From Methylophilaceae bacterium (lineage in GTDB: Bacteria > Pseudomonadota > Gammaproteobacteria > Burkholderiales > Methylophilaceae), in the NCBI GenBank assembly GCA_009926525.1, contig RFOR01000004.1:1-16380 (forward strand): a stretch of 16,380 nt of DNA. Reading direction: 5' to 3'. The translations under genes and the position numbers were made by a program. The notes beneath the pieces were generated by a model. It saw only the letters and a list, made by a program, of their open reading frames with translations, did no database searches and had not been told where the DNA came from. Below, piece by piece: positions 1 to 16,380 of the stretch; the stretch's first letter is position 1, and each line of letters opens with the position of its first letter.

Positions 1-2
1 CT

Positions 3-2333
3 ACTCAACACAGTCTACGTTTTAACTTGCATTATGCAAGTTATGAGGTGAGTGCTCTAAAGCGTCTGGCCCAAAGACACGGGATGTATGAGCAAGAAGT
101 GTCCTGGCTAATTGCAACAGATCGGCTGGTTGACATGTTCAACATAGTTAGAAACTCTTTGATTATCGGTGAAGAGAGTTATTCGATTAAGAAGCTGGAG
201 CGTCATTACAAATTTATTCGTTCGTCAGATGTGACAAAGGCCACAGCGAGTATCGATGAGTATGACCGATGGAGGGAGTTAGACCAGTTGTCTAAGCACC
301 CAGGTATCGACCCGGTCGAGAGAGCCAAAGCCCAGAGTGAAGCAGCGCAGATCTATGCAGAACTCAGGCTCTATAACCTTGAAGACGTTTGGTCTACCAG
401 AGAGCTTTACCGTTGGCTAGAAGGAATGGAAGGAGCGTGCTCCAAATATGGATTGTCTGAACCAGGCGATTCAGATGAGGAGGATGGGGATCGCGCCCTA
501 ACCAATAAAGAGATCGAGCTAGCTGAACTTCACGCTCAAACTCAAGAACTATTCGACAAAGTTGAGGGTTGGGAATGGGGTAAAGACCTAGAAGCTGATT
601 ACAGAGCAACTGTTTGGCTAGCTCTCACACACTCAATACTTTTCTATAAACGCGAAGACGTCATGTTTTGGGCAGACATAGCCATCAAAGTTCTGATGGA
701 TGACGAGATGCTTTCTCGGGACAGAACTGCCGCTTCAATTACAGAAGTAACCGAAGTCTCGAGAGAAGTCAAGACTGGGCGAGACGGCACAGCAAAGCAA
801 ATTGTCACATACACCGCACAGCTCTCGGATGGTGACTTCTTCATCCCGAAAAAGCGTATGAGTATCATTACCCGTTACCGGTCAGAGGGTAAGAGACAAA
901 ATAGAGATTACGGTGAGGTTGTCGAATTCTTAGAAGGGTCTTTGACCTTTACTCGACGAGTCCGAAAAGGGTCAGACAGATTCATTCCTGATGCAATCAT
1001 TGACGTTACTTCTTTTTCAACTGTTGCAAAACAAAGAGAGCTAACAAATCTTGCCAATGGCATCGCTAAGGCTTGGGGTTCTCCGCTCAATCCTGCTCCG
1101 AATGATCCTGCGATTATGGATTTATTAATGCGTAGACCTCCCAAGCTAAAGTCTTTGAACTCTTTACCGACTCCTGATCCGGATAACTACCTACCTTCAG
1201 TGATAGCGGCTGTTGAGGATTTGGATAATTCTGTTCTAGCTATTCAAGGCCCTCCTGGTTCTGGAAAGACTTATCTTGCTTCACGCACTATTGCTCATCT
1301 AATTGCTGCCGGTAAAACAGTTGCAGTCACTGCTACTTCACATTCTGCAATCGATAATGTTCTACAAGCCTGTGTCGAAGCTGGAGTCCCCATTGAGTTA
1401 ATAATGAAAGCACAGAAAGACGCACCCCCTCAGGTGTGGGAAATCAAGGACACCTCTCCTGCCGCTACCTGGGTGCGGAAACAAGATGGTGCTTTCCTAA
1501 TAGCTGGAACTTCATACTTCTTCAGCAATGAAAGAGTCCGAGAGCGACAAGTAGATTACCTATTCGTAGATGAGGCGGCACAGTACTCACTTGTTGATTG
1601 CATGGCTGTTAGCGGCTTTGCTAAGAACATAGTCCTTATGGGGGATCCGCAACAGCTTGCTCAAGTAGTTACCGCCGTACACCCAGGTGGAGTTGAGAAC
1701 TCTGCTTTAGGTCACTACATGGGAGACCATTCGATTCTCCCTCCAAACATGGGTTACTTCATTGAAGTCACCAGAAGATTGCATCCAGAGGTCAACCACG
1801 CAGTAAGTTGGTTGGCTTACGAAGGGAAATTGAGATCTCACCCGTCAACTGTTACTAACAAGATTGATGGACATGAACAGGGATTGATTACTATTCCAGT
1901 CCCACACATTGGTAATTCCACTTCAAGTGAAGAGGAGGCGTTGACTGTTGTGAAGTTGGTTGAATCTCTTCACGCGAGAAAAGATCCTTCCAATGTTCTA
2001 GTCGTGGCAGCCTATAACGCGCAGGTAGATCTCATCAGGCAGAAACTGAACGACGCCGGGTTTGAAGATGTAATGGTGGGAACTGTCGACAAGTTCCAGG
2101 GACGAGAAGGCATGGCAGTCATCTACAGCTTTGCCGCATCATCCAGCATGGATGCTCCAAGAGGCTTGGAGTTCCTTTTAGACAGGAACAGGTTGAATGT
2201 TGCGATTAGCCGGGCTAAGGCCACTTGCTACCTAGTTTTCAGTGAAACCCTATTGCAAAGCCAATTTAGGACTGTTGCTGAAGTCAAAGCAATTAGCCGT
2301 CTAGCTGGGCTTCTGGAGATTGCCGCTAAATAG
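3..2333 (+). CDS. TM0106-type RecB-like nuclease / SF1 DNA helicase, 5'-truncated by window edge
   Basis: Predicted DNA-processing enzyme joining an RNase H-fold nuclease domain to a superfamily 1 DNA2/NAM7-like helicase. The frame is open to the left edge with no stop, so the first in-frame TTG (27) is not a convincing start and the N-terminal nuclease part is missing. The opening residues (HYASYEVSALKRL, then SYSIKKLE, then YNLEDVWST near residue 116 counted from the TTG) match the end of the nuclease domain in the TM0106 family as I know it. Helicase motifs follow in order: Walker A GPPGSGKT (nt 1248-1271), Walker B DEAA (1569-1580), GDPQQLAQV, then VGTVDKFQGRE and LNVAISRAK near the C-terminus. 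Motif order and spacing look intact, so it is probably functional. This domain combination is common in Actinobacteria, which is one reason the left half is assigned there. The 3' end overlaps the next gene tail-to-tail by 8 nt. The precise biological role is not known to me. Confidence 0.85.
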   Translation, partial: TQHSLRFNLHYASYEVSALKRLAQRHGMYEQEVSWLIATDRLVDMFNIVRNSLIIGEESYSIKKLERHYKFIRSSDVTKATASIDEYDRWRELDQLSKHPGIDPVERAKAQSEAAQIYAELRLYNLEDVWSTRELYRWLEGMEGACSKYGLSEPGDSDEEDGDRALTNKEIELAELHAQTQELFDKVEGWEWGKDLEADYRATVWLALTHSILFYKREDVMFWADIAIKVLMDDEMLSRDRTAASITEVTEVSREVKTGRDGTAKQIVTYTAQLSDGDFFIPKKRMSIITRYRSEGKRQNRDYGEVVEFLEGSLTFTRRVRKGSDRFIPDAIIDVTSFSTVAKQRELTNLANGIAKAWGSPLNPAPNDPAIMDLLMRRPPKLKSLNSLPTPDPDNYLPSVIAAVEDLDNSVLAIQGPPGSGKTYLASRTIAHLIAAGKTVAVTATSHSAIDNVLQACVEAGVPIELIMKAQKDAPPQVWEIKDTSPAATWVRKQDGAFLIAGTSYFFSNERVRERQVDYLFVDEAAQYSLVDCMAVSGFAKNIVLMGDPQQLAQVVTAVHPGGVENSALGHYMGDHSILPPNMGYFIEVTRRLHPEVNHAVSWLAYEGKLRSHPSTVTNKIDGHEQGLITIPVPHIGNSTSSEEEALTVVKLVESLHARKDPSNVLVVAAYNAQVDLIRQKLNDAGFEDVMVGTVDKFQGREGMAVIYSFAASSSMDAPRGLEFLLDRNRLNVAISRAKATCYLVFSETLLQSQFRTVAEVKAISRLAGLLEIAAK

Positions 2334-2586
2334 GTTCTTTCCCGCACTCAAACATATCTACCCGGTGCTTACAAGACTTATCAAACACAATCCAGCTACC
2401 TTTAGGCGCTGCTTTGGCAGCGCTGGCATGCTGGTCACACATGAACTCGAACTGGCCGCAAGGACAGATAAGTCTGTGAGTCGCTGTGCCTTCACAGTCT
2501 TTATAGTCACAGGTGACGCTGAAGCTGAGATGGTCTATAAGCCTTAGATCATCTTTTACTTTGGTTCCGCTACCCGATGCTGGCAT
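2326..2586 (-). CDS. small Cys/His-rich putative zinc-binding protein
   Basis: An 86-residue protein of unknown function. It has paired cysteines in a zinc-ribbon-like pattern: CDYKDC, then CPCG, then CDQH, and later CKH and FEC. Two CxxC/CxxH-type knuckles are plausible metal ligands. The ATG at 2584-2586 is preceded on its own strand by AGAAAGG about 6 nt upstream, a good ribosome binding site, which argues for a real gene and against the overlapping + strand frame (2320-2547). It is antisense to and converges with the helicase gene, sharing 8 nt at the stops. There is no signal peptide or membrane segment, so it is probably cytoplasmic. The family name is not recognised; a binding or regulatory role is only a guess. 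Confidence 0.7.
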   Translation of the reverse strand: MPASGSGTKVKDDLRLIDHLSFSVTCDYKDCEGTATHRLICPCGQFEFMCDQHASAAKAAPKGSWIVFDKSCKHRVDMFECGKEPI

Positions 2587-2842
2587 CTTGGCCTTTCTTC
2601 TTTGAATAGTCTAAAAGCCCGTTTCCCGATTCTCCCTGCAACGGCAGAATAGCAATGCTTTTGCCCAAGCCCTCGTTGGGGCCTTAGTTTCAGGGACGAG
2701 GTCCTTCTATTTATAGCCAAAAGACAAGGAAAACAGGGGATTAACTCAGATTATTCCCTATTGAGAACATCCATCTTTGCAGGTAAGTTTAGAGACGTTG
2801 TGCAAAACACCATGCGGGAACGCATCGACTGGGAGGTCACTC
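2587..2842. promoter_or_regulatory. divergent intergenic region upstream of the cassette
   Basis: This 256 bp gap separates divergently transcribed genes (2586 leftward, 2843 rightward), so promoters for both should lie here. I could not pick a convincing -35/-10 pair. Two small inverted repeats are visible: CCTCGT (2671-2676) with ACGAGG (2696-2701), and ATGCG-GGAA-CGCAT (2812-2825). The second is a 5-bp stem with a GNRA-type loop, ending 5 nt before the ribosome binding site of the next gene. No tRNA or small RNA could be confirmed. Confidence 0.35.
2831..2837 (+). promoter_or_regulatory. ribosome binding site that fixes the 2843 start
   Basis: GGGAGGT lies 5 nt before the ATG at 2843 and is the strongest Shine-Dalgarno-like site in the left half. 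It selects that ATG over the in-frame TTG at 2777, which has no such site. Confidence 0.75.
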
Positions 2843-3445
2843 ATGGCGGCAAAGGCTTCATTTAATAACCCAAGTGTTCCGAAGAAGCTCTATTACTGCG
2901 AGATCCTCAAGATCCGCAGAATGGGTCGACGCGATGCAAAGAAGATGCAGGGGCTGAAGGACTTTACTCGCACCCAAGCCATCAACGAATTTGAGTCATA
3001 CTCGCAGCGTGGTGAAATTGCACTAAACGACTGGCTGCTTAGAGTCTCTTCTCCTTACGTGACAGGTAACTCAAGAATTGAAGCAGAACTAGACCTATTG
3101 TTTGTGAAGATTGACAAGCAAAAGGCGAGCATGGGTAAGACCGGTCGCGAACAGAAGGCTGCCACTCTGCGCCTAGCTGCCCTCGAGCAAGAGATGTCTG
3201 ACCTAAGAAGCCAATACTCTTCAAACAAGGAAACCGGTCTTGCACTTATTAGACGTGCTGATGAAGTTAAGCCTCTCTGGGAAAACCTATACAGACTAAA
3301 GGGTTCTATTTACAACCAGTCCAGAGCTAGAAAGCTCAAGGCAGATGTTGAAGCAGCAGCAGCTGAGTTACCTGTATACAGAGTTCACCCTTCAGTCGAA
3401 CTAGACCAGTTTGACAAAGAGCTTCCAGAGAGAAAAACCAAATAA
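2843..3445 (+). CDS. coiled-coil protein of unknown function, first gene of the cassette
   Basis: A soluble, charged 200-residue protein that I do not recognise. The start is the ATG at 2843 because of the GGGAGGT site just upstream; a longer frame from a TTG at 2777 lacks support. The N-terminal ~70 residues are basic and compact. Residues ~80-175 are rich in Lys, Glu, Ala, Leu and Gln with heptad-like spacing and probably form a long coiled coil. There is no signal peptide or membrane span. The next gene begins 3 nt after its stop and that one overlaps a lipoprotein gene by 8 nt, so the three are almost certainly one transcript. The product may be a cytoplasmic partner of the membrane coiled-coil protein; that is inferred from arrangement only. 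Arginine is often AGA, as elsewhere in the left half. Confidence 0.75.
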   Translation: MAAKASFNNPSVPKKLYYCEILKIRRMGRRDAKKMQGLKDFTRTQAINEFESYSQRGEIALNDWLLRVSSPYVTGNSRIEAELDLLFVKIDKQKASMGKTGREQKAATLRLAALEQEMSDLRSQYSSNKETGLALIRRADEVKPLWENLYRLKGSIYNQSRARKLKADVEAAAAELPVYRVHPSVELDQFDKELPERKTK

Positions 3446-3448
3446 CCC

Positions 3449-4636
3449 ATGGCTGACCTATTCTGGCGCATTCGCGTCAAGAGGAGAGCTCGCAAGATTC
3501 TGCTAGCGCTTCCAGATTTACCTTCAGATATCGATGACAACGTTTTTATCGCTTTAGGTACACAAGCAGCTGAAGCTGACAAAAATTCAAAAGCCTACGA
3601 CGAATTCCTGTTCTCCGAAGAAGGCTATGAGCAGATGCCTTATGAGGACAGCGTCCAAGAAATACTGTCCTTGCAGCAGGCCAGAACTCCTGAGCGTAAG
3701 GGACGTGCAGAACTCCCTCTTCGAATGGTTATTGAATACATCGAAAAACTCATTGAAGTACACAAACGCCATGTTGTTGATGCTGAAGCAGAGCGCGACG
3801 CGATCAAGCAGCAAATTGTTGAGGAATCAGAGATTCTTACCGGTTCTAAAAAGGGTGAGCATGGCGGTTTTTGGGAAGGAGTCGCTCCTGACACCACTTC
3901 ACGATGGAAGCACATCACAGGCGTGCTTAGAGAATGGGCAACTTTAGTTCTCGTTGCTGCAGCTGATGCTTTGGTTGTCTTCCTCTCGCTAAGAACTATT
4001 ACTAGCAACCAGGATGAGGCTCTTATGCTTTCGGCTCCTGCAATTGGTGTTCAAATTCTTTTCCCACACTTAGTCGGTAAGGCTATTGCTGACGCTAGAA
4101 GCAAAAACTCTAGAAGCGTCAAAGACTGGATTATCGCTGGTGTAGTAATGGCCGCTTGGGGAGGCTACGTCTACGGTATGACAGTGCTTCGTTTCAACTT
4201 GATGATGGACTTCTACGTAACCCGATATAACAAACCGATGCCTGATGACATCCAGATTGCTGTCTTTATTTTCAGCTTGTTGATCCTTATCGGTCTTGGT
4301 CTTTGGATTTTGATTAGGTCGATGAATAGCAACCCTCACAAAAGCCGATACTCACGACTGCTATTTGTTTACTTCAACAAGCTACGCGCACTCAGAGTGG
4401 CAGAATCTCGTCTACAGAAGACTGAAGCTGATCTTGAAGCCAGCCTGAAACAGCTAGCTGCTATCAGTGAGCAGTGGGACAAACGCGCAGCCAGCTACCC
4501 TCAGGTGGGCGAATCAGCCAAGGCTGTCTACAGAAGAGCCTTGGTAAATCAACAGGGAACCCCTGTCTTCACAACTGAGTACTTGCCCGAAAGTAAATTC
4601 AAAATCAAGAGATCTAGAAAGCAGAGCAATGACTAG
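3449..4636 (+). CDS. integral membrane protein with flanking coiled coils, second gene of the cassette
   Basis: A 395-residue protein of unrecognised family. Residues 1-160 are hydrophilic, with a probable helical/coiled segment around 95-130. Four hydrophobic stretches follow at about 163-185, 192-215, 227-247 and 268-290. The C-terminal ~100 residues are again charged, with a likely coiled coil near 313-350 (heptad-like run around LQKTEADLEASLKQL). By the positive-inside rule the charged ends probably face the cytoplasm. The ATG follows the previous stop by 3 nt with only a weak upstream site (AGAGAG), so translational coupling is likely. The stop overlaps the start of the lipoprotein gene by 8 nt. 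The shape, a membrane core with coiled-coil arms beside an OmpA-type lipoprotein, suggests an envelope assembly, but no known family was identified. Confidence 0.75.
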   Translation: MADLFWRIRVKRRARKILLALPDLPSDIDDNVFIALGTQAAEADKNSKAYDEFLFSEEGYEQMPYEDSVQEILSLQQARTPERKGRAELPLRMVIEYIEKLIEVHKRHVVDAEAERDAIKQQIVEESEILTGSKKGEHGGFWEGVAPDTTSRWKHITGVLREWATLVLVAAADALVVFLSLRTITSNQDEALMLSAPAIGVQILFPHLVGKAIADARSKNSRSVKDWIIAGVVMAAWGGYVYGMTVLRFNLMMDFYVTRYNKPMPDDIQIAVFIFSLLILIGLGLWILIRSMNSNPHKSRYSRLLFVYFNKLRALRVAESRLQKTEADLEASLKQLAAISEQWDKRAASYPQVGESAKAVYRRALVNQQGTPVFTTEYLPESKFKIKRSRKQSND

Positions 4637-5817
4637 CAGAACCAGTCACAAATTTGCGGCGCTTGCACTAGTGCTTCCCCTTTTTCTAACTGCCTGCGGC
4701 GGTGGCAAAGTGATTTCAGCAGATGGTCTCATCGTGAAGAAAGATGACTCACACGTTTACTGCGCGCTATCAGTGCAGAAGTCTCCGGCTCTGATCCCAT
4801 CTCAGACTGTCGCCATCCTTGCTCCAACAGATACATTCGTTGACTTTGAAACAGTTATTACAGCTTCAGAAACCGAAGTTAAGGCAACTCTTGGTGGTTC
4901 ACTGCCTAAAGCCCAATTGAAGGAAGCTAAGGGTAGAGAGTTTTCTGTTGTGCTAGCCGATGGTAACCCTAGAATGCTGTCGAAACTTTCCGTTCAACCA
5001 ATGGGTGATGCCGAGTACGACATCACCAGTGCAATTGACAGCACCTTTGGAATATTTAGACTTGCAAACAATTGCGCAGCAGGTGGTTTCAAGCGTCCAA
5101 ATGATCAAGTTGAAACCAAGCCGGAAAGCAACATCCTTAAATCGCTTAGCATTGCTGCGGATCAACTGACAATCGCTTCTGGCCCCAAAAAAATCTTCAT
5201 TCTAGGAAACGGCATTCAGACTGCTGGTGCAATTGAGATGCAGACTTTAGGTTCATTCCCAAAGAGCAAAACAACAGCCACTCTTTTGGCTAAGCGCCTA
5301 AAGGCCTCTGGCGAAATCCCAGATCTTGGTGGTGCGGAAGTTTATTGGTACGGATTAGGCCAAGTAGACGGCGTTAATCAATCTCTCTCTGAGAAGTCGA
5401 GGACTTCTCTTGAAGCTTTCTGGAGAGAAGTAATTTCTCTGGGCCATGGCAAGCTGATGGAAGTTTGTGGCCAGTGTGGAGCAGGCAGCCCACATCCACA
5501 AGCTGTCAAGGTAGCTCCAGTTGTGATACCTGAGTGCAAAACCAGATTGTACGAATCAGATGGTGTGGAATTCAAGCCAGACTCCGCTACCTTTACAAGC
5601 ATGTCTGAAGCATTAGCTTCCGCTAAATCAATTAGTGCAGCATTCAAGAGCAAGGGTTGCGATGAGATCGCTGTTACTGGATATGCCGCTGCCGGTGTTG
5701 ATAAACCTACCTATGAAAAAAAGAAGAATTCTATTGACGCTATTAACAAGACCTTGACGAAGAACCGCGCTGCTGCTTTCGGTCGCTTGATTAGACAAGC
5801 AGGATTCTCAGGCCCAA
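4629..5817 (+). other. left half of the chimera: secreted lipoprotein with OmpA-like C-terminal domain, 3' end missing
   Basis: The first 23 residues form a lipoprotein signal: basic start, hydrophobic core, lipobox LTAC with Cys23 as the lipidated residue. Residues ~175-275 (from FILGNGIQTAG, through LGGAEVYWYGLGQVDG, to SLEAFWREV) resemble a domain I recall from actinobacterial OmpA-type proteins. Residues ~310-395 look like an OmpA-family peptidoglycan-binding domain: VEFKPDSATF, then IAVTGYAAAG, then LTKNRAAAFGRLI. The ATG overlaps the stop of the membrane-protein gene by 8 nt, indicating coupling. The sequence stops resembling this family at about residue 393-397, short of where the OmpA domain should end. 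It is probably anchored to the outer face of the membrane and contacts the cell wall. Confidence 0.7.
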
Positions 5818-6581
5818 TTGTTTCAGCGAATCTAAGCGAAGCCGAACGCTTGATTAAAATTGCTGTAGCGCAAGGTGCAAAACTGATTGTGCTTCCAGAA
5901 CACTTTGCGATTATGGGCATCAAGGACACCGATAAAGTAAAAGCGAGTGAAAAAGAAGGGACTGGCCCGATTCAGCAGTTTCTTTCTAGCGCCGCTAAGA
6001 AACGTGATGTTTGGATTGTGGCTGGTTCAGTACCGCTTCAATCTGATACTAAAGACAAAATTTATAATGCTTGCATGGTCTATGACAACAAAGGAAAGTT
6101 AGTCGCGCGCTACAACAAAATTCATCTGTTTGGCCTAAACCTAGGTAACGAAAAGTATCATGAAGAATCAACCATCGTTCCAGGTAATCAAGTTGTGACA
6201 GTGGATAGTCCATTTGGCAAAATTGGATTGTCTATTTGCTACGACTTGCGGTTCCCTGAGCTTTATCGCGCCATGGATAAAGTTGATTTAATTTTAGTGC
6301 CTGCAGCTTTTACAGAAACTACTGGGAAAGCCCATTGGGAAACCTTAGTACGCGCACGTGCTATTGAAAATCTATGCTATGTTTTAGCCCCAGCACAGGG
6401 TGGCTATCATGCTTCAGGTCGTGAAACGCACGGCGACAGTATGATCGTGGACCCCTGGGGCGTAGTGCTTGACCGCTTACCTCGTGGTTCTGGCGTGGTG
6501 ATCGCATCGATGAACTTAGACTATCAGAGCAGCTTACGTAAAAGCCTACCTGCTTTACAACATCGCACTGTTTTTAAATAA
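4629..6581 (+). CDS. chimeric frame: OmpA-like lipoprotein fused in frame to a nitrilase-family hydrolase lacking its N-terminus
   Basis: One uninterrupted 650-codon frame holds two unrelated proteins. Residues 1 to ~395 are a lipoprotein with an OmpA-like end; residues ~396-650 are a carbon-nitrogen hydrolase with Glu424, Lys497 and Cys537 but without the usual first strand and start. I know of no family with this domain pair, and the order makes little sense: a surface-anchored lipoprotein leading into a cytoplasmic enzyme. Arginine codons change at the boundary: 7 AGA, 1 AGG, 1 CGT, 3 CGC before; 12 CGN and no AGA/AGG after. The upstream neighbours look actinobacterial and the downstream ones betaproteobacterial. 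I therefore read it as a join between two genomes, probably by assembly, and describe the halves separately. If annotated automatically it would wrongly be called a single hydrolase or a single OmpA protein. Confidence 0.8.
   Translation: MTSRTSHKFAALALVLPLFLTACGGGKVISADGLIVKKDDSHVYCALSVQKSPALIPSQTVAILAPTDTFVDFETVITASETEVKATLGGSLPKAQLKEAKGREFSVVLADGNPRMLSKLSVQPMGDAEYDITSAIDSTFGIFRLANNCAAGGFKRPNDQVETKPESNILKSLSIAADQLTIASGPKKIFILGNGIQTAGAIEMQTLGSFPKSKTTATLLAKRLKASGEIPDLGGAEVYWYGLGQVDGVNQSLSEKSRTSLEAFWREVISLGHGKLMEVCGQCGAGSPHPQAVKVAPVVIPECKTRLYESDGVEFKPDSATFTSMSEALASAKSISAAFKSKGCDEIAVTGYAAAGVDKPTYEKKKNSIDAINKTLTKNRAAAFGRLIRQAGFSGPIVSANLSEAERLIKIAVAQGAKLIVLPEHFAIMGIKDTDKVKASEKEGTGPIQQFLSSAAKKRDVWIVAGSVPLQSDTKDKIYNACMVYDNKGKLVARYNKIHLFGLNLGNEKYHEESTIVPGNQVVTVDSPFGKIGLSICYDLRFPELYRAMDKVDLILVPAAFTETTGKAHWETLVRARAIENLCYVLAPAQGGYHASGRETHGDSMIVDPWGVVLDRLPRGSGVVIASMNLDYQSSLRKSLPALQHRTVFK
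5812..6581 (+). other. right half of the chimera: nitrilase-superfamily carbon-nitrogen hydrolase (Nit/omega-amidase-like), 5' end missing
   Basis: Members of this superfamily hydrolyse amides or nitriles by a Glu-Lys-Cys triad. All three are visible: Glu in LPEHF (residue 424 of the fused frame), Lys in YNKIHLF (497), Cys in SICYDLRFPEL (537). The spacing of 73 and 40 residues suits the Nit1/Nit2-like branch. Recognisable similarity starts at VSANLSEAERLI, which in full-length relatives comes roughly 15 residues after the start, so the methionine, first beta strand and ribosome binding site are absent. In many betaproteobacteria a hydrolase of this type sits directly before tldD, as here, which supports this half belonging with the right-hand genes. 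The natural substrate cannot be told from sequence; deaminated glutathione or an omega-amide is plausible for the branch. Confidence 0.82.
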
Positions 6582-6617
6582 ATCTTCACCTTAAGTTTTA
6601 TATTAAAGATTTTACTT

Positions 6618-6636
6618 AGCGGGGCAATGCCCCGCT
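6618..6636 (+). terminator. hairpin after the hydrolase gene, probable terminator
   Basis: A perfect 8-bp GC-rich inverted repeat, AGCGGGGC-AAT-GCCCCGCT, lies 37 nt past the hydrolase stop. The T tract after it is poor (TCTGCTAT), so termination may be partial and some read-through into tldD is possible. Confidence 0.6.
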
Positions 6637-6682
6637 TCTGCTATATTAAACGCATCAATAAGTAATACATGAAAGTATCTGC

Positions 6683-8158
6683 ATGAAACAAGACCATAAC
6701 ACACCAACGCAAACCAATCACTTCAGCACTGCCACTGAAACATTGCTAGACCCAACAAATCTAGACATCCCTGCTTTGCAGGGTGTGTTAAACAACATCA
6801 TGACGCATGAGATTGACTATGCGGATTTATACTTCCAATACAGTCGCTCGGAAAGCTGGGGCCTAGAAGAGGGCCAAGTAAAATCAGGCAACTTCAGCAT
6901 AGACCAAGGCGTCGGTGTTCGCGCAGTCAGTGGCGAAAAAACTGCTTTTGCTTACTCAGACGACATTAACTTACCCGCTCTTCAACAAGCAGCAAATGCG
7001 ACAAAAGCCATTGCTGACATGGGCAATGATAGCTTTGAGGCAAACAAGACTGGCATTGTTGAGCGCGTTGAAGCACCACAGCTTTATATTCCACAAGACC
7101 CGATTGCATCGCTTAGCGCAGAAGCCAAAGTGAAATTATTAGAACGCCTAGAAACCTTCGCTCGAAAAGTAGACCCGCGCATTTCGCAAGTTACGGCTTC
7201 TATCGCTGGCGAGTATGAAGTCATCATGGTGGCGCGACATGATGGGGTGATGGCTGCTGATGTTCGTCCTTTAGTTCGACTCTCTATTAACGTGATTGCC
7301 GAAGGTAATGGTCGCCGTGAACAAGGATCAGCAGGCGGTGGAGGTCGTTTTGATTATGCTTACTTTACTGACGCTGTCTTACAAGATTATGCGGAAAAAG
7401 CTGTACATCAAGCACTCGTCAATTTAGATGCGCGCCCTGCCCCAGCGGGCAATATGACGGTTGTATTGGGCGCAGGTTGGCCAGGCATTTTATTACACGA
7501 AGCCATTGGTCACGGCTTAGAAGGCGACTTTAACCGCAAAGGTAGTTCAGCTTTCTCAGGAAAAATTGGCCAACGCGTTGCTTCAAAGGGCGTGACGGTG
7601 GTGGATGATGGCACGATTAGCAACCGTCGTGGATCATTGAGCCTTGATGACGAAGGCAACCCAACACAGCGAACTGTGTTAATTGAAGATGGTATTTTGC
7701 GCGGCTATATTCAAGACAGCCTCAATAGCCGTTTAATGGGCATGCCACTAACTGGCAATGCGCGCCGCGAATCTTATGCGCATATTCCTATGCCGCGCAT
7801 GACCAATACCTACATGCTAAATGGAGATATGCCACCAGAGGAAATCATCAAGTCAGTTAAAAATGGTTTGTATGCGGCTAACTTCGGTGGCGGACAAGTG
7901 GACATCACAAGCGGAAAGTTCGTATTTAGCGCTGCTGAAGCTTATATGATTGAAGACGGCAAAATTACCTACCCTGTTAAAGGTGCCACCCTTATCGGCA
8001 ATGGGCCTGATGTTTTAACGCGCGTCTCAATGATAGGCAATGATATGGAATTGGACAGCGGTGTTGGCACTTGCGGCAAAGAAGGTCAAAGTGTTCCGGT
8101 CGGGGTGGGGCAACCAACCTTAAGAATTGATGGCCTAACTGTAGGCGGAACGGCTTAA
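6683..8158 (+). CDS. tldD: TldD metalloprotease subunit
   Basis: TldD pairs with TldE (PmbA) to form a zinc protease that degrades unfolded peptides; in E. coli the pair matures microcin B17 and affects the CcdA antitoxin. The 491-residue length fits the family (~480). The metal-binding signature [11 protein letters not shown] is at residues 272-282, with His272, Glu273 and His277 in the HExxxH pattern. The conserved Cys464 in GTCGKEGQ near the C-terminus would complete the zinc site. The N-terminal half contains the ADLYFQ and [18 protein letters not shown] segments typical of TldD. The chosen ATG at 6683 has only a weak upstream GAAAG; the first ~30 residues are poorly conserved, so the real start could be slightly downstream. 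TldE is not in the window, which is normal because the genes are usually unlinked. The hydrolase-tldD order is a common betaproteobacterial arrangement. Confidence 0.93.
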
Positions 8159-8214
8159 AAGATTGATGACTGTTTGGCAAAAAACTTAAACTGTGTTTTA
8201 CTTCGGTTTATGCA

Positions 8215-8243
8215 TTACTCGGTCATGTATTAATTGTTATACA
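8215..8243 (+). promoter_or_regulatory. weak candidate promoter for the H1-like gene
   Basis: In the AT-rich gap after tldD, TATACA (8238-8243) could serve as a -10 element, with TTACTC (8215-8220) 17 nt upstream as a poor -35. The downstream gene has its own good ribosome binding site, so some promoter in this gap is likely, but this particular pair is tentative. Confidence 0.25.
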
Positions 8244-8285
8244 AAATTAACTTAAGTATTTCTTTGAAAGCGAAGAGGATTAAAA

Positions 8286-8642
8286 ATGGCGACAAACGAG
8301 ACAACAACCCCAGCAGCTGCAAAACCTGCAGCAGCTAAAAAACCTGCAGCTGCTAAAAAGCCTGCAGTTAAGAAAGTAGCTACGACTAAAGTCGCCGCAA
8401 CTAAACCTGCAGCAGCCAAAAAGCCTGCTGCAGCAAAAACAACAGCTGCTAAACCAGCCACAGCAAAAAAACCAGCTGCGGCTAAGAAACCTGCCGTCAA
8501 AAAACCTGCTGCGCCTAAAGTAGCTGCTCCAAAATCTGTTGCTCCTAAAGCTGTCGCAGCAACGCCAGCTGTACCAAAAGCTGCGCCATCACTTGGCTTA
8601 TTTGGCTCAATTGGGGCATTCTTCAAAAAGTTACTCGGCTAA
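8286..8642 (+). CDS. Lys/Ala/Pro-rich histone H1-like protein
   Basis: A very basic 118-residue protein made mainly of KPAAAKKPA-type repeats (residues ~13-95), like the C-terminal tails of histone H1 and bacterial H1-like or AlgP-like proteins. Such tails bind DNA or other polyanions and may help organise the nucleoid. The last ~19 residues differ: a hydrophobic, probably amphipathic helix with LFGSIGAFFKKLL, which might touch membrane or a partner protein. AAGAGGA lies about 7 nt before the ATG at 8286. There is no globular DNA-binding domain. The antisense frame 8252-8626 is a by-product of the repeats. The neighbour at 8804 has a related Lys/Ala-rich tail. The function is inferred from composition. 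Confidence 0.8.
   Translation: MATNETTTPAAAKPAAAKKPAAAKKPAVKKVATTKVAATKPAAAKKPAAAKTTAAKPATAKKPAAAKKPAVKKPAAPKVAAPKSVAPKAVAATPAVPKAAPSLGLFGSIGAFFKKLLG
8322..8560 (+). repeat. degenerate in-gene repeats encoding KPAAAK-type units
   Basis: Repeats of Lys-Pro-Ala-Ala-Ala-Lys and Lys-Pro-Ala-Val-Lys-Lys units, with recurring nucleotide cores such as AAACCTGCAGC. Unit number is likely to vary between strains through slippage or recombination, and short reads may collapse the tract. Confidence 0.7.
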
Positions 8643-8702
8643 GCCACTAACTTTTCGTTAAAGCGCTAACAAAACGAAACCATCGTTTTGTTAGCGTGGC
8701 TT
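8641..8702 (+). terminator. large hairpin after the H1-like gene, possibly a three-way junction
   Basis: A perfect 14-bp stem, CGCTAACAAAACGA (8664-8677) with TCGTTTTGTTAGCG (8683-8696), closes on a 5-nt loop. Outside it AAGCCA (8641-8646) pairs with TGGCTT (8697-8702), and the intervening 17 nt on the left side can form a small TAAC/GTTA hairpin. The outer stem begins within the stop codon of the H1-like gene. There is no T run after it, so it may protect the 3' end of the mRNA or work as a weak terminator rather than a classical intrinsic one. Confidence 0.55.
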
Positions 8703-8729
8703 CAGACTATTAGCGCCGGACATAGCGTC

Positions 8730-8767
8730 GAGTGCACTTCACCCATACTTACCATGTATGGGCACTC
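8730..8767 (+). terminator. second hairpin followed by T-rich sequence
   Basis: GAGTGC (8730-8735) pairs with GCACTC (8762-8767), and inside it CCATAC (8743-8748) pairs with GTATGG (8756-8761) around a 7-nt loop, leaving a 7-nt one-sided bulge. It is followed by TTTAAAGTTTTATTG. It could terminate transcription of the H1-like gene or be part of the leader of the DUF2934-type gene. Confidence 0.5.
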
Positions 8768-8803
8768 TTTAAAGTTTTATTGTTTAACTTGAAAGGAAAG
8801 AAG

Positions 8804-9094
8804 ATGGCCATCAGCAAAACTGATAAACCAAGTACCGCGAAGAAATCAATACCAGAAAAAACAGTATCCAAGAGAGCTGCCGCTTCAAAAGCGCCCTCTG
8901 TCAAAAAAGTCGCCACAAAAAAACCTAGTACCAAAAAACCTGCTGCCAAAAAATCTGCGAAGCCCAGCCCTGAGGCGCTTTACAAGATGACAGAAGTTGC
9001 AGCCTATTACATCGCTCAAAACAATGGTTTTGCAGGCAATCCGAGCGATTATTGGATCACGGCTGAAGCGCAAATTAGCGCACTATACAAATAA
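8804..9094 (+). CDS. Lys/Ala-rich N-terminal tail plus DUF2934-type domain
   Basis: A 96-residue basic protein. Residues 1-60 are a Lys/Ala/Ser/Pro-rich tail with repeated KKPSTKKPAAKK-like units, similar in style to the H1-like neighbour. Residues ~64-94 (VAAYYIAQNNGFAGNPSDYW then TAEAQI) match the short DUF2934 signature: an AYY.A helix, a G..G turn, D.W and an AE..I helix. The function of DUF2934 is unknown. The ATG at 8804 is chosen because AAAGGAAAG sits just upstream; a longer frame from a GTG at 8732 would run through the hairpin at 8730-8767 and has no ribosome binding site. A DNA- or RNA-binding role is likely from the charge, but the domain gives no direct evidence. Confidence 0.8.
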   Translation: MAISKTDKPSTAKKSIPEKTVSKRAAASKAPSVKKVATKKPSTKKPAAKKSAKPSPEALYKMTEVAAYYIAQNNGFAGNPSDYWITAEAQISALYK

Positions 9095-9136
9095 GCTTTA
9101 CTCAAACCATCGCAAAACCAAATCTATCCCTTATTC

Positions 9137-9164
9137 ATAGCCTTAGCATCCATGCTAAGGCTAT
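9137..9164 (+). terminator. perfect 13-bp hairpin between the DUF2934-type gene and mfd
   Basis: ATAGCCTTAGCAT (9137-9149) and ATGCTAAGGCTAT (9152-9164) are exact inverse complements with only CC between them; in RNA the loop would open to about ATCCAT. No T run follows on either strand. The position fits a terminator or mRNA end-protecting structure for the DUF2934-type gene; an operator is an alternative. Confidence 0.55.
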
Positions 9165-9167
9165 AAT
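9162..9167 (+). promoter_or_regulatory. consensus TATAAT, candidate -10 element for mfd
   Basis: A perfect TATAAT 35 nt before the mfd ATG shares its first three bases with the end of the 13-bp hairpin. The -35 region at a normal distance (about 9139-9144, AGCCTT) is unlike consensus, so this may be a weak or activator-dependent promoter, or chance. Confidence 0.35.
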
Positions 9168-9202
9168 ACGGCTTCTTTACTTATTATTCGCGGCAAGACT
9201 TC

Positions 9203-12200
9203 ATGCAGTTTTCCTTAGCCATTCCGGCACAAGGCAGCACAAAAAAAATAGACAAGACATGCACTGGTTTAGATAGCGCGGTCCTTGCACAATTGGCGCT
9301 TGAGCTTAAGGCCAATAAAGGCAAAACCCCGCTTACTATCATCACTGCCAATGCCTTCGATGCGCAGCGTCTGCTTGAAGAAATGCCATGGTTTGCTCCT
9401 AACCTAGTCGCCAATCTATTGCCCGACTGGGAAACACTTCCTTACGACCACTTTTCACCGCATCCTGATTTAATTTCTGAACGACTATCCACGCTTTACC
9501 AAATTAGCCAAAACAATTGTGATGTGGTCATCGTGCCGGCAGGCACTGCACTGATTAAACTGCCGCCGATGGCTTACTTGGCGGCCAATAGCTTTATGCT
9601 TAAAAAAGGGCAAAAGCTAAATTTAGAAGCCTTAAGAAAACAATGTGCTGAAGCTGGCTACCATCATGTGAGCCAAGTGGTGAGTCCTGGTGAGTTTAGC
9701 GTGCGCGGTGGCTTAGTCGATTTATTCCCAATGGGGAGCAGCCTTCCCTTCCGTTTAGATTTATTCGACGATGAAATCGAGACCATCCGTACCTTTGATG
9801 TCGACACACAACGCAGTTTATATCCAGTCCCAGAAATTAGGTTGTTACCAGCCCGTGAGTTTCCGCTCGATGACCAAGGCATTGCGCAGTTTAGACAAAA
9901 CTTCCGTGAAAAATTTGAAGGCGATCCCTCAAGAAGCCGCATCTATAAAGATGTCAGCAAGGGTGTTGCGAGTGGTGGCATTGAATGGTACTTACCACTA
10001 TTCTTCGAAAAAACAGCAACCCTGCTTGATTACTTACCTGAACAAACCGTGCTCTGCATGCACGGCAATCTAGACAATGCCGCGCAGAGCTTTTGGTTTG
10101 AGGCACAGTCTCGTTATCGCCTACTAGCGCATGATGTTGAACGCCCTATTCTCGCGCCTGAAACCTTACTCATTAAAGCGGATGAGTTTTTCAGCCAAAC
10201 GCATCGTTACCCTCGTCTCACAATCAATAACGACGCAGCTCTTACTGGCCTTCCAGAGCTCGATATTGAACGCCGTGCAGAAAAGCCGCTCCATAAATTA
10301 GAGGCGTTTATCAAAGACTTTAAAGGCCGCATCTTGATTGCCGCCGAGAGCCTTGGACGCCGCGAAACGATACTTCAACTCTTAACAGACCAAGGCATCA
10401 AGCCTGATCTTTGTGAAAGCTGGGAAGACTTCAATACCAGTGCTGCCAAGCTAATGCTAGGGGTAACTACGCTGCATAGCGGCTTTCAATACAAAGACGT
10501 GGCGATTATCACAGAAGCCGAGTTATATGCTGCCACAGTGCGTCAGCAACGTCGCCGTGATAAAGAAAAAGCCCGAAGTACTGAAGGCATGCTTAAAGAT
10601 TTGTCCGAGCTACGCGAGAACGACCCTGTCGTCCACGAACAACATGGGGTTGGGCGTTACCGCGGCCTCATTAACTTAGACTTTGGCGAAGGTGAAACCG
10701 AGTTCTTGCTATTGGAATATGCGGGCGACGATAAGCTCTATGTGCCAGTCTCACAGCTATTCCTGATTTCACGTTACTCAGGTGGGCCACCAGAATCTGC
10801 ACCGCTTCACAGATTAGGCTCTGGCAACTGGGAAAAAGCCAAGAAAAAAGCACTCAAACAAATTCGCGATACTGCCGCAGAATTGCTGAATCTTTATGCA
10901 CAACGTGCATTACGTAAAGGCCATGCTTTTACCTTAAGCCTGCATGATTATGAAACTTTCGCCGAAGGATTCCCTTTTGAAGAAACGCCTGATCAGCTTT
11001 CTGCGATTGAAGCGGTTATTAGCGATATGCAATCAGGCAGACCAATGGACAGATTGGTGTGTGGCGATGTCGGCTTTGGTAAAACAGAAGTGGCCCTTCG
11101 TGCCGCTTTTGTGGCAGTAATGGGTGGTCGCCAAGTGGCAGTGCTCGTGCCAACGACGCTTCTTGCTGAACAGCATTTCCAAAACTTTAGCGACCGCTTT
11201 GCCGAATGGCCGATTAAGGTAGCTGAGATTTCTCGTTTCCGTACAGCAAAAGAGCAAGCCGAAGCCCTCAAAGGCTTGACTGACGGGAGTATCGATATCA
11301 TTATCGGCACACATCGTTTAATCTCAAAGGACGTGAAGTTTGATAATTTAGGCTTGGTCATTTTGGACGAAGAACACCGCTTTGGTGTTCGTCAAAAAGA
11401 GCAGCTGAAAGCCATGCGTGCAGAAGTCGATGTGCTAACTCTTACCGCCACGCCGATTCCTCGGACGCTTAGCATGGCGATGGAAGGCTTGCGTGAGTTC
11501 AGTGTGATTACTACGCCGCCGCAAAAACGCCTAGCGATTAAAACCTTTGCAACGGATTATTCAGAAGGCATTATTCGTGAAGCCGCGATGCGTGAGTTTA
11601 AACGTGGCGGCCAAGTTTATTTCTTACATAATGAAGTTGATACCATCCACTCTATGCGCGAAAAGCTAGAGCGTATCTTGCCGGAAGCACGTATCAGCAT
11701 TGCTCACGGACAATTACGTGAGCGCGAGCTAGAACATGTGATGCGTGACTTCTATCATCAGCGCTCAAACTTATTACTTTGTACTACCATTATTGAAACT
11801 GGTATTGATGTACCAACCGCCAACACGATTATTATGAACCGTGCGGACATGTTTGGCTTGGCACAACTGCATCAATTACGTGGACGTGTGGGTCGTTCCC
11901 ATCACCAAGCTTATGCATATTTACTCACCGAACCTAACCGTAAAATAACGCCACAAGCTCAAAAGCGTTTGGACGCGATTCAGCTCTTAGAAGATCTAGG
12001 TGCAGGCTTTCATCTTGCCATGCACGACTTGGAGATTCGCGGTGCAGGTGAATTGCTAGGCGACTCGCAAAGCGGCGAGATGCAAGAAATCGGCTTCCAC
12101 TTGTATTCAGAGATGCTATCTCATGCGGTGAAGCGTTTGAAAGAAGGCAAAGAACCAGATTTATCAGCACCATTGGGCGTCACCACAGAAATCAATCTTC

Positions 12201-12610
12201 ATACGCCAGCTTTGCTGACGAATGCTTATTGTCCTGACGTGCATGAACGCTTGGTCCTTTACAAGCGCCTCGCTAACTGCACGAATGACGACGAGCTAGA
12301 CACCATGCAAGAGGAGCTCATCGACCGGTTTGGCATGCTTCCCGAGCAGGGCGAAGCGTTGATGGCCTGCCATCGTTTGCGTGTTGCCGCCAAACCGCTT
12401 GGCATCATCAAAATTGATGCCAGTGATAGCGCGATTCAATTACAATTCTGCCAACAAGCAGATTTAGACCCAACCAAGCTAATTGCATTACTGCAACGTG
12501 ACCGTCGTTGCCGCATGAACGGCCCTGATAAATTGCGTATTACCGTGGCTTATGGTGATATCGTTCACCGTGCTGATTTCATTAAAAACATCATGAAAGA
12601 GTTTGTATAA
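9203..12610 (+). CDS. mfd: transcription-repair coupling factor Mfd
   Basis: Mfd is a DNA translocase that removes RNA polymerase stalled at lesions and recruits UvrA to start nucleotide excision repair. At 1135 residues it is full length (E. coli 1148). Residues ~1-340 form the UvrB-like module (LPDWETLPYD, then GEFSVRGGLVDLFP). The RNA polymerase-interacting domain starts near 474 (DPVVHEQHGVGRYRG). Helicase lobe 1 has Walker A GDVGFGKT at 621-628 and DEEH at 722-725, then LTATPIPRTL. Lobe 2 carries GRVGRS at 894-899 and the following translocation segment. The C-terminal regulatory domain is visible from about 985 (HTPALLTNAYCPDVHERL). No motif is missing. The ATG at 9203 has only a weak upstream site. 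The stop is directly followed by the ATG of the DedA-family gene, so the two are likely co-transcribed. Confidence 0.97.
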   Translation: MQFSLAIPAQGSTKKIDKTCTGLDSAVLAQLALELKANKGKTPLTIITANAFDAQRLLEEMPWFAPNLVANLLPDWETLPYDHFSPHPDLISERLSTLYQISQNNCDVVIVPAGTALIKLPPMAYLAANSFMLKKGQKLNLEALRKQCAEAGYHHVSQVVSPGEFSVRGGLVDLFPMGSSLPFRLDLFDDEIETIRTFDVDTQRSLYPVPEIRLLPAREFPLDDQGIAQFRQNFREKFEGDPSRSRIYKDVSKGVASGGIEWYLPLFFEKTATLLDYLPEQTVLCMHGNLDNAAQSFWFEAQSRYRLLAHDVERPILAPETLLIKADEFFSQTHRYPRLTINNDAALTGLPELDIERRAEKPLHKLEAFIKDFKGRILIAAESLGRRETILQLLTDQGIKPDLCESWEDFNTSAAKLMLGVTTLHSGFQYKDVAIITEAELYAATVRQQRRRDKEKARSTEGMLKDLSELRENDPVVHEQHGVGRYRGLINLDFGEGETEFLLLEYAGDDKLYVPVSQLFLISRYSGGPPESAPLHRLGSGNWEKAKKKALKQIRDTAAELLNLYAQRALRKGHAFTLSLHDYETFAEGFPFEETPDQLSAIEAVISDMQSGRPMDRLVCGDVGFGKTEVALRAAFVAVMGGRQVAVLVPTTLLAEQHFQNFSDRFAEWPIKVAEISRFRTAKEQAEALKGLTDGSIDIIIGTHRLISKDVKFDNLGLVILDEEHRFGVRQKEQLKAMRAEVDVLTLTATPIPRTLSMAMEGLREFSVITTPPQKRLAIKTFATDYSEGIIREAAMREFKRGGQVYFLHNEVDTIHSMREKLERILPEARISIAHGQLRERELEHVMRDFYHQRSNLLLCTTIIETGIDVPTANTIIMNRADMFGLAQLHQLRGRVGRSHHQAYAYLLTEPNRKITPQAQKRLDAIQLLEDLGAGFHLAMHDLEIRGAGELLGDSQSGEMQEIGFHLYSEMLSHAVKRLKEGKEPDLSAPLGVTTEINLHTPALLTNAYCPDVHERLVLYKRLANCTNDDELDTMQEELIDRFGMLPEQGEALMACHRLRVAAKPLGIIKIDASDSAIQLQFCQQADLDPTKLIALLQRDRRCRMNGPDKLRITVAYGDIVHRADFIKNIMKEFV

Positions 12611-13219
12611 ATGTTAGAACAAATCATTGCTGTCCTAGCCACTTGGATTATGAGCGTTATCTCTGCCTTAGGGTATAACGGCGTTGTCTTGCTGATGGCA
12701 ATTGAATCTGCCTGCATTCCTCTCCCTTCGGAGATTATCATGCCGTTCGCAGGATTTTTAGTATTCAAGGGTGAAATGACGCTTTTAGGCGTGGCGTTGG
12801 CTGGTGCGATTGGCTGTGTAGTAGGTTCCATCCCTGCATACTACTTAGGCATGTACGGTGGCAGACCGCTAGTAGAAAAATATGGGAAATGGGTACTCAT
12901 TTCTGCCAAGGATTTAAATTGGGCAGACCAAGCATTTGCCAAACACGGCGACTTGATTATTTTTGTAGGACGCTTATTGCCTGCCGTCCGCACCTTTATT
13001 GCATTCCCTGCAGGGGTAGCGCGTATGAATATAACCAAGTTTATTGCTTACACGTTTGTTGGCTCACTGATTTGGTGTTACTTATTAGCATTTGCAGGCT
13101 TCAAGATGGGGGAAAACTGGGAAAGTCTTAAAATATACTTTCATGAATTCCATTATCTAATTGCTGGCGCTGGCTTACTCTTTGTGATTTGGTACGTGAG
13201 AAGGCACTTTAAACACTAA
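12611..13219 (+). CDS. DedA-family membrane protein
   Basis: DedA proteins (SNARE-associated/VTT fold) are inner-membrane proteins needed for membrane homeostasis; some act as undecaprenyl-phosphate or phospholipid translocases, often proton-driven. The 202-residue length is typical. Signatures seen: ESACIPLPSE at 32-41 with acidic residues Glu32 and Glu41, GSIPAYYLG, and GRLLPAVRTFIAFPAG at 120-135 with Arg121 and Arg127 in the positions essential in E. coli YqjA/YghB. Several hydrophobic segments include re-entrant-type stretches around the proline-rich motifs and a final span near 180-197 before the basic tail RRHFKH. The start codon follows the mfd stop with no gap, and AAAGAG inside the mfd end may be its ribosome binding site. 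The substrate cannot be told from sequence. Confidence 0.92.
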   Translation: MLEQIIAVLATWIMSVISALGYNGVVLLMAIESACIPLPSEIIMPFAGFLVFKGEMTLLGVALAGAIGCVVGSIPAYYLGMYGGRPLVEKYGKWVLISAKDLNWADQAFAKHGDLIIFVGRLLPAVRTFIAFPAGVARMNITKFIAYTFVGSLIWCYLLAFAGFKMGENWESLKIYFHEFHYLIAGAGLLFVIWYVRRHFKH

Positions 13220-13223
13220 GCAG

Positions 13224-16200
13224 CTATAAAGTTACCAACTGACCAACACTCACAAAATAAACAGCTAGTTGGATACCTAAACCCTCATCCGAGAAAAGTG
13301 CAGCATAGCCCTCAAGCTGCTGACGATGTTGCTCAGCAGCTTGCTTCAAGTTAGTCTCATCAATATTCACCGCCAGCTTAGCCGTTTTGTAATCAACAAT
13401 CCAGCGTACGCCATCTTGAACAAAAGTACGGTCGATGATTTTTTTGCGAACCTGAGTCCTGTCATCCCCAAGACTTTCAATCTGTAGTTCGTTAGTCGCA
13501 CTTTCACGGCTTTGAAGCAGCCACTGCCCTTGCGAACTCTCTAAGGTTGTTTTGAGTAATGTCAACACAGCATCGGCACCTTGATTGGCCATGCTGATTG
13601 CATAACCACGACCGGTAAACCAGCGGTGCATCGCCAGCTTCAAAGGCTCAAGCCGAGTCAAAGACCAAGCATCCAATCCTTGATTAGCGATCAACTCCAA
13701 ATAACGATGTGTCAGCGTGCCGATATCGGCTTCTAAGACCAAAATGTCATCATCTTTGTCTTGATCAGATTGTTTGGAAGCTTGGTTTTGCGGCATCCCA
13801 TGCGCAACTTCAGCTTGCAAAATGGCAGGCACTGTTGGATTGGTTAAACGAACTAATTTAGGCACAAAATCCTGCAGGTTTGTGCTTAACTGACTGCCTA
13901 TTTGCTTAGGCAATTCATTTTGAATTTGCGCTAATTTTTCTTTGCTAAATTCATGTGCAACCACAGGCCACAAAATCTCTAAAAAGGTATTTTTCTTAGG
14001 ATGTAGTTCACCGTCTTTATTAGCGCTGACCGCACCTAATAAATGTAAACAGCGCTCAGCACGAGTTGCTGCCACATAAAGCACACGGGCATCCTCATAA
14101 TCAGCACGCTGTTTTTCTAGCGATTTTAAATAGTCATAAATGCTGACTTGCTCGGCTTTATTTTTGGATTTTGGAATGAATGGTGCGACCACTAAATCCA
14201 CATCCGCAACATCATCATCAAAGGACTCTCTAGGCACTTCTTCCCACATCAATAAAGGCTGCTCACCGCCACCTGTAGTCTTATCTAGTCCAGGCAAAAT
14301 CACCGTATCAAACTCCAAGCCTTTAGCTTTATGGATAGTCATAAATTGCAAGGCGTCAGGCGCTTTAGCATCGGGCGCCGCATAGAGTTTTTCAACTTCT
14401 ACCGCTAATTGCTCAGTAGAAAACTGCCCCGCCATTTCCATCTTATCAATGCGATCAAAAAAAGCCTGCACATCGCGCACATCGCCAGCATCCCACAAGC
14501 AAGCTGGGCCACCTAGCATAAGCCATACCCCATGCACCCAGCGGCTAGTTTCCATGCGACCTTGATGTTGCAAAGCTTCTTGCATCACCCCTCGCACGTG
14601 CATTAAACGCTGACGACCATCTTCACTCAATCTTTGCACATGGACTTCATCTTGCATCAAATCAAGCACGGTACGATATTGATCACGCCCCACAAGATAA
14701 TGCAAATCTTCCAAACTCAAGCCACACCATGGTGCGCGCAAAATGGCTAACCAATGCACACGGTCTGCGCGTTGATGCAGGGCGTTGGTGAGCGAAAGTA
14801 AATCCTGCACTACTTGGCGATTGGCGAGCTCTTCAATCTCAACTGCCTGAAAAGGGATGTCCGCGTGATTGCGGCGAATCTCCGCCACCAATGCATGCAA
14901 GTGACTACGCGCACGAACTAGTACAGCAATTTTTCGGGCTGGACTCTCAGCCCAAGTAGCTTTAATAATCTCAATGATTTTATTGGCTTCCAGCTGACGA
15001 ACGTCCGTTAGCGCCTTTTCATCCTCAGCGTCTTCCTCGGCATCGCTTTCTATAGCGCCATCTAGCATTGCGTGAACCTTAACGCCTGCCCCAGCTGACG
15101 GACGCGCTTTAGCGACAAATTTTCGATACTTAATCGCCCCTCTTGAAACGCTGTCTTCAGCTGGAAAAACTTGAGAAAACGCCTCGTTCACCCAATTAAC
15201 AACGTCCTCATGAGAGCGATTGTTTCGCCAAAGCTTGAGTGGTGTTAGCGACAAATCGCCAATCCCTTGCTTGAGCACGCGCAAGAACAAACCAACATTA
15301 GCTTTGCGAAAGCGATAGATAGACTGCATCGGGTCGCCCACTAAAAACAAAGTACGCGCATCGCCATCCATCCAGCCTGCAGTGAGCTTTTCTAATAGTT
15401 TGATTTGCGTTGGGCTGGTATCTTGAAACTCATCAACCAGAAGATGCTTAATGCGGTAATCGAGCTTAAGCGCCAAATCGCTAGGGGCATCATCACCTAG
15501 TGCAGATAAAGCATTTTGAGAGATTTGCACAAAATCGACTTCTTTATTGCGTTGAAACGCCATCCAAAGCTCAGCAGAAGCGATTTTAAGTAAATTCGCA
15601 AACACCGAAACAATCTCATGGCTTTGTGCATCATATTTGGGATTGGGTAAGCGACGGAGATTAGCCAAAGCCTGCTCAGACCCTTTAATTTGGCGAAGTT
15701 CTGCAATAAAAGCGTATAACTTTTCTTTCCAATCATTGCCTTCCGGTGTTGCAGGGAAGCCACTGTTTACATTCACAGCTAATCTAAATTCATTCTTACC
15801 AGTCAACAACAACTCCACTACAGCCCGCCACATATCTAAGGCTTCTGGTTTGAATGGGATAGGCGTTTCCCAATCACGCAACAAGGCAACGACTTTGTCG
15901 CATGTTAGATTAGATGCAGCATAGCGCGCAATCGGCATCAAACCCTCTTGCACGGATTTGTTCATTACTTCCGCGACGGCTTGCATATCGCCCATCACTA
16001 ATTGATACAAAGCAGTTTCAGCCAATGAAGCATCATTGTGGTTGACCACATTTTCTTGCCATTGGTCGCGCTTGGCGAGCATATCTGCCAACAATTCATT
16101 TAACTTGATGTGGTTGTTATCAAAATAACGAAGTGCTTTTTGAACAGTTAGACCAACATCTTTTTCATCAAGATTTGCCAGTGTCTTAGTCGCGGCTTCT

Positions 16201-16379: not shown

Positions 16380-16380
16380 A

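Follow-up and report, generated by a model that had tools for sequence, protein, structure and literature searches.

An open reading frame joining a lipoprotein and a nitrilase-family hydrolase on a Methylophilaceae-type contig very probably results from a chimeric join of two genomes

Introduction

An open reading frame at 4629-6581 of a contig assigned to a Methylophilaceae bacterium begins as an OmpA-like lipoprotein and ends as a nitrilase-type hydrolase, which raises the question of whether it is a genuine fused gene or a place where two genomes have been joined by mistake. The stretch analysed here (the window) is the entire contig C126, 16,380 bases in length, from an assembly that comprises 202 contigs and 821,986 bases, with a completeness of 77% and an estimated contamination of 2.9%. 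Both contig ends cut genes, a helicase gene on the left and a UvrD-family gene on the right. A review of metagenome assembly traces chimeric contigs to places where shared k-mers or sequencing errors link assembly graphs (PMC7299287). The original prediction for this locus, made from the letters of the DNA, was a mis-join of two genomes inside one gene, and our results bear it out: the two arms of the contig have collinear relatives in different phyla, the switch between them falls within ~20 bases, and yhdP, the gene expected upstream of the hydrolase, lies on another contig, C181. We consider it very probable (about 0.96) that the contig is chimeric, an artefact of assembly or library preparation, and that the fused gene is not new.

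Results

The fused frame

The frame was confirmed to have 650 codons, an ATG start and no internal stop. It is composed of residues 1-399 of a lipoprotein type of 430 aa, followed by a hydrolase without its first 28 residues. In a Pfam search (E <= 0.001), the only match of the 650-aa frame was CN_hydrolase (PF00795), which starts at residue 399 (profile position 15); the first 398 residues gave no match. The domain is incomplete, as the match covers profile positions 15-255 of 256; because it begins at position 15, the hydrolase domain lacks its start. The change from lipoprotein to nitrilase-type hydrolase is placed from both sides, with CN_hydrolase starting from residue 399 and the match to the 430-aa lipoprotein P0001 ending at 399. 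P0001 differs from frame residues 1-399 at 14 positions and diverges afterwards. The original observation that neither domain is complete at the boundary also proved right: 31 C-terminal residues of the lipoprotein and 28 N-terminal residues of the hydrolase are missing. Since the window protein has no PF00691 (OmpA-like) match at E <= 0.001, and precomputed PF00691 is carried by just 2 of the 79 relatives listed (P0059 and P0079), the label OmpA-like is a loose one.

Table 1. Features of the 16,380-base window (positions in window coordinates)
Feature	Position	Strand	Remark
Left arm, actinobacterial (Micrococcales-type)	1..5807	+	gene order as in L031 (Micrococcales MAG contig)
Helicase gene, 3' part, cut by contig end	27-2333		65% protein identity to L031
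Small ORF	2326-2586	minus	81% protein identity to L031
222-aa ORF	2777-3445		94% protein identity to L031
395-aa membrane protein	3449-4636		98% protein identity to L031
Lipoprotein gene, 5' part, residues 1-399 of 430	4629..5825	+	C-terminal 31 residues missing
Join interval	5807..5826	.	<= ~20 bases, SGPIVS in same frame on both sides
Nitrilase-family (carbon-nitrogen hydrolase) gene, truncated	5808..6581	+	first 28 of 285 residues missing
Right arm, betaproteobacterial (Methylophilaceae-type)	5827..16380	+	gene order as in same-genus relatives
tldD	6683-8158		right arm
Lys/Ala-rich ORFs, two	8286-8642, 8732-9094		between tldD and mfd
mfd	9203-12610		right arm
dedA-like gene	12611-13219		right arm
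UvrD-family/addA-like gene, start cut by contig end	13224-16334	minus	

Two arms with relatives in different lineages

The left genes had been predicted to look actinobacterial, and they are collinear with L031, a contig of a Micrococcales MAG and the sole locus for the left arm found in the genome collection, with protein identities of 65-98% (Table 1); for the lipoprotein part the value is 90%. The helicase gene of L031 encodes 1196 aa, and the window copy lacks its start. The L031 lipoprotein (L031:10001-11293) has 430 aa, extends 31 residues past the join, and is followed by a 290-aa ORF which we take to encode a trypsin-like protease. Among the proteins listed for the whole frame, the best were P0001 and P0002, both of 430 aa and 96% identical over only the first 61%, and the source names among listed left-type proteins include Microbacteriaceae, Micrococcales, and Rhodoluna. 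No left relative closer than L031 was found among 58 relatives of G061, the genome of the left relative, where three places in two genomes matched with identities of 66, 66, and 36%. The genome G081, a relative of the left parent, contains two lipoprotein copies (G081:C14:18449-19702 and G081:C83:20-1273) with 66% identity to P0001; one of them lies at a contig edge, perhaps owing to a strain mixture. In the window, the genes for the 395-aa protein and the lipoprotein overlap by 8 bases (4629-4636) in different frames.

The right arm was expected to be betaproteobacterial because of its hydrolase-tldD order, and this order is found in all six same-genus Methylophilaceae-type relatives compared. 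The whole order of yhdP, hydrolase, tldD, mfd, dedA-like gene, and UvrD/addA-like gene is kept in these 6/6 relatives, with ~4 kb between mfd and dedA in G001. Nine same-genus relatives were searched and eight matched (G002 gave no match); the gene-order comparison took in six of the eight, leaving out G007 and G008. The window hydrolase is 96% identical to residues 29-285 of the protein P0080, and among the best 120 of 8000 matches the hydrolase part reaches up to 96% identity to proteins of 285 aa, with the name Methylophilaceae on two proteins. The UvrD-family gene encodes 1036 aa in the window vs 1149-1152 aa in two relatives. The frame was matched in 57 of 61 genomes (the window's own and 60 relatives), and none of the matches listed outside the window's own genome begins before residue 353, so the corresponding places in those relatives have no lipoprotein part. 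The first Lys/Ala-rich ORF gave a sub-threshold histone H1-like HC2 match (PF07382, 33.8 bits vs a cut-off of 40). The closest relatives of the two arms thus belong to different lineages, as in a chimeric contig.

The join

The main blastn block to L031 (2747-5824, 82% DNA identity) ends at the join, and the blastn matches to the same-genus loci start at 5807 or 5808 in six of eight, with later starts in G008 (5811) and G009 (5833); the G009 match moves to 5807 when shorter words are used. In 60-base bins with shorter words, the left relative matches with 73-83% identity in 5208-5807 and is gone after 5824, and six right relatives match with 68-92% from ~5807 to 6407. Such a sharp switch within a gene, at a short stretch that both sides could share, is a mark of a chimeric contig.

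The left protein reads GFSGPIVSVGG at this place and the right protein MASGPIVSANL, while the window reads GFSGPIVSAN. The six residues SGPIVS are common to P0001 and P0080 at the join and lie in the same frame. The original prediction had pointed to TCAGGCCCAAT (5808-5818) as a stretch that both parents could match; this match is indeed real, albeit shorter than the stretch that the parents could have in common, which extends at most over 5807-5826. This bound follows from the flanking codons of the relatives (Phe vs Ala before, Val vs Ala after), from which the flanking residues of the parents are taken. Within the 18 bases encoding SGPIVS, G006 has 17 of 18 as in the window, and L031, which is a relative and not the left parent itself, differs at 5 of 18. 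We infer that both actual parents carry identical bases at the join.

Differences from the relatives seem denser near the join. Four of the 14 differences from P0001 fall in residues 367-390, and 3 of the 10 differences from P0080 (counted from residue 394) fall in residues 413-425, both being small post hoc counts made by eye. At most, they may point to low coverage or a mixture of strains at this place.

Composition

The arginine codon counts given with the original prediction are exact, with AGA/AGG accounting for 8/12 in 4629-5807 vs 0/12 in 5808-6581. Three left genes have AGA/AGG shares of 24/48, 11/19, and 13/29, compared with 1/25 in tldD, 7/79 in mfd, and 5/61 in the addA-like gene of the right arm, where the dedA-like gene (3/6) is the exception. 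Despite these odd arginine codons, the dedA-like protein is 95% identical to its G006 counterpart, which occupies the same place.

A tetranucleotide comparison of the arms, proposed with the original prediction, separated them only in part. The distance is 319 between the left and right arms, 129 between the left arm and L031, and 107, 113, 115, and 144 between the right arm and four same-genus loci, but the two halves of the right arm are themselves 226 apart. The left arm has Markov-corrected correlations of 0.49 with L031 and 0.28-0.43 with the same-genus loci, compared with 0.32 with the right arm; these values part the arms less clearly than the distances do. GC content along the window has no step at the join. 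Composition by itself would not have settled the case.

The displaced neighbour

In all six relatives, yhdP lies directly before the hydrolase gene, and its alignment ends 151-206 bases ahead of the SGP codon. The window's genome has a single yhdP match, on contig C181 (12,093 bases), in an orientation that fits a following hydrolase gene, and C181 extends just 26 bases beyond the yhdP stop codon, ending where the hydrolase is expected. The hydrolase has a single match in the window's genome, on the contig analysed here, and was not found elsewhere in it. Both genes at the join thus have their true neighbours elsewhere, yhdP on C181 and the continuation of the lipoprotein in L031. Comparing different genes over different aligned lengths, C181 has mean DNA identities of 85 and 83% to G001 and G006 vs 83 and 82% for the right arm, and of 76 and 76% to G004 and G005 vs 82 and 82% for the right arm. 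To judge from these sequences, C181 and the right arm are compatible with one species, which the identities do not prove, and they may stem from different strains.

The left helicase gene had no place in the window's genome (G000) besides this contig. No WhiB gene was found in G000, whereas three were found in G061, and a probe for the downstream neighbour of the lipoprotein, which had no positive control, gave no match in G000. These two probes give no sign of general actinobacterial contamination, and general contamination of the bin by an actinobacterium is not claimed.

Search for independent fusions

A fused gene in an independent genome had been named as the finding that would count against a mis-join, and none appeared among the matches listed. 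The protein searches cover ~5.8 billion proteins and are strong, not exhaustive; the whole-frame search scored just the 8000 candidates with the most words in common. There was no fused relative among the 79 proteins listed for the whole frame, which have 370-446 aa each except for P0051 (815 aa). P0051 was considered as a nitrilase fusion and rejected, as by eye it contains the preceding actinobacterial gene and the lipoprotein instead; in this relative of the left parent, the gene prediction merges a membrane protein like that of 395 aa with the lipoprotein into one protein of 815 aa. For residues 340-460, none of the 13 proteins listed from 305 candidates is a fusion; all 13 belong to the lipoprotein family and cover 47-50% of the stretch. 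Intact separate versions of both genes are present in the protein database, and single-domain forms are numerous.

Discussion

Our results indicate that the frame combines the beginning of one gene and the end of another from a different phylum. Micrococcales-type DNA (1 to ~5807) would have been joined to Methylophilaceae-type DNA (~5826 to the end) at <= ~20 bases where the lipoprotein and nitrilase-family genes have six encoded residues in common. As the reading frame of these bases agrees between the two genes, such a join stays open and seems to be one protein of 650 aa. The first intact parent would be a lipoprotein of 430 aa of Micrococcales/Microbacteriaceae, as represented by P0001, P0005, and L031; the left part of the frame is 96% identical to P0001 and 90% to L031. 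Unlike the window frame, intact P0001 runs 31 residues beyond the join. The second would be a 285-aa hydrolase of Methylophilaceae-type bacteria, as represented by P0080 and in G006, with 96% identity over P0080 residues 29-285. In G006 the downstream genes are the same as those of the right arm, and, unlike in the window, the intact hydrolase begins 28 residues ahead of the shared motif and is preceded by yhdP.

A single open frame with an ATG start and no internal stop is also what a genuine two-domain gene would have, in which lipoprotein and hydrolase cooperate in one organism. We find this scarcely credible, as both parts are incomplete, they belong to different phyla and differ in codon use, and no second example was listed while single-domain versions are numerous. 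Natural transfer deserves slightly more attention, albeit still very improbable. An actinobacterial segment recombined into the hydrolase gene of a Methylophilaceae-type bacterium, through ~20 bases of chance similarity, would leave an in-frame fusion, and the absence of a stop codon, the same residues in both parents at the join (also expected for recombination at microhomology), and the two probes that gave no sign of general actinobacterial contamination would all agree with it. However, each gene lacks an end that its relatives keep, and the left flank retains the gene order of the Micrococcales contig. No mobile-element Pfam domain occurs in the four left ORFs before the frame, three of which match nothing, and none of 60 genomes related to the window's own carries the 395-aa left gene. 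Neither the lack of a fused protein among the matches listed nor the position of yhdP, on a contig that ends at the expected start of the hydrolase, is what such a transfer predicts. We infer that the join arose during assembly or library preparation rather than in a living cell.

The chimeric contig may have been made by an assembler error or from a physical chimeric molecule, and the shared stretch is short for the former. A smallest k-mer of 21 bases is a common assembler default. As the shared stretch of <= ~20 bases is below 21, an error through shared k-mers would require something more to coincide with it, be it an overlap-type step, a sequencing error, or a variant base. Alternatively, a chimeric molecule may have been formed physically, by whole-genome amplification or by PCR or ligation in library preparation, and sequenced faithfully. 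Up to ~20 shared bases, short for a k-mer graph error, are ample for template switching. On the other hand, a rare molecule would presumably have to outcompete intact ones in the assembly, and we regard this route, which is counted within the main reading, as possible, though less likely than not.

The contig resembles inter-genomic chimeric contigs, in which DNA of more than one species is present in one contig and joined at a shared stretch (PMC7299287). Unlike the cases described in that review, which involve k-mers shared by closely related species or links through sequencing errors, the present one involves different phyla, <= ~20 bases, and unrelated genes.

In summary, this chimeric contig requires that any linkage of genes across 5807-5826 be discarded, that no 650-aa fusion protein be annotated on it, and that the left genes not be assigned to the Methylophilaceae-type genome on the basis of this contig. 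The case is biologically ordinary, and its value is a caution only: a mis-join between two phyla can yield a stop-free in-frame fusion where both genes encode the same few residues.
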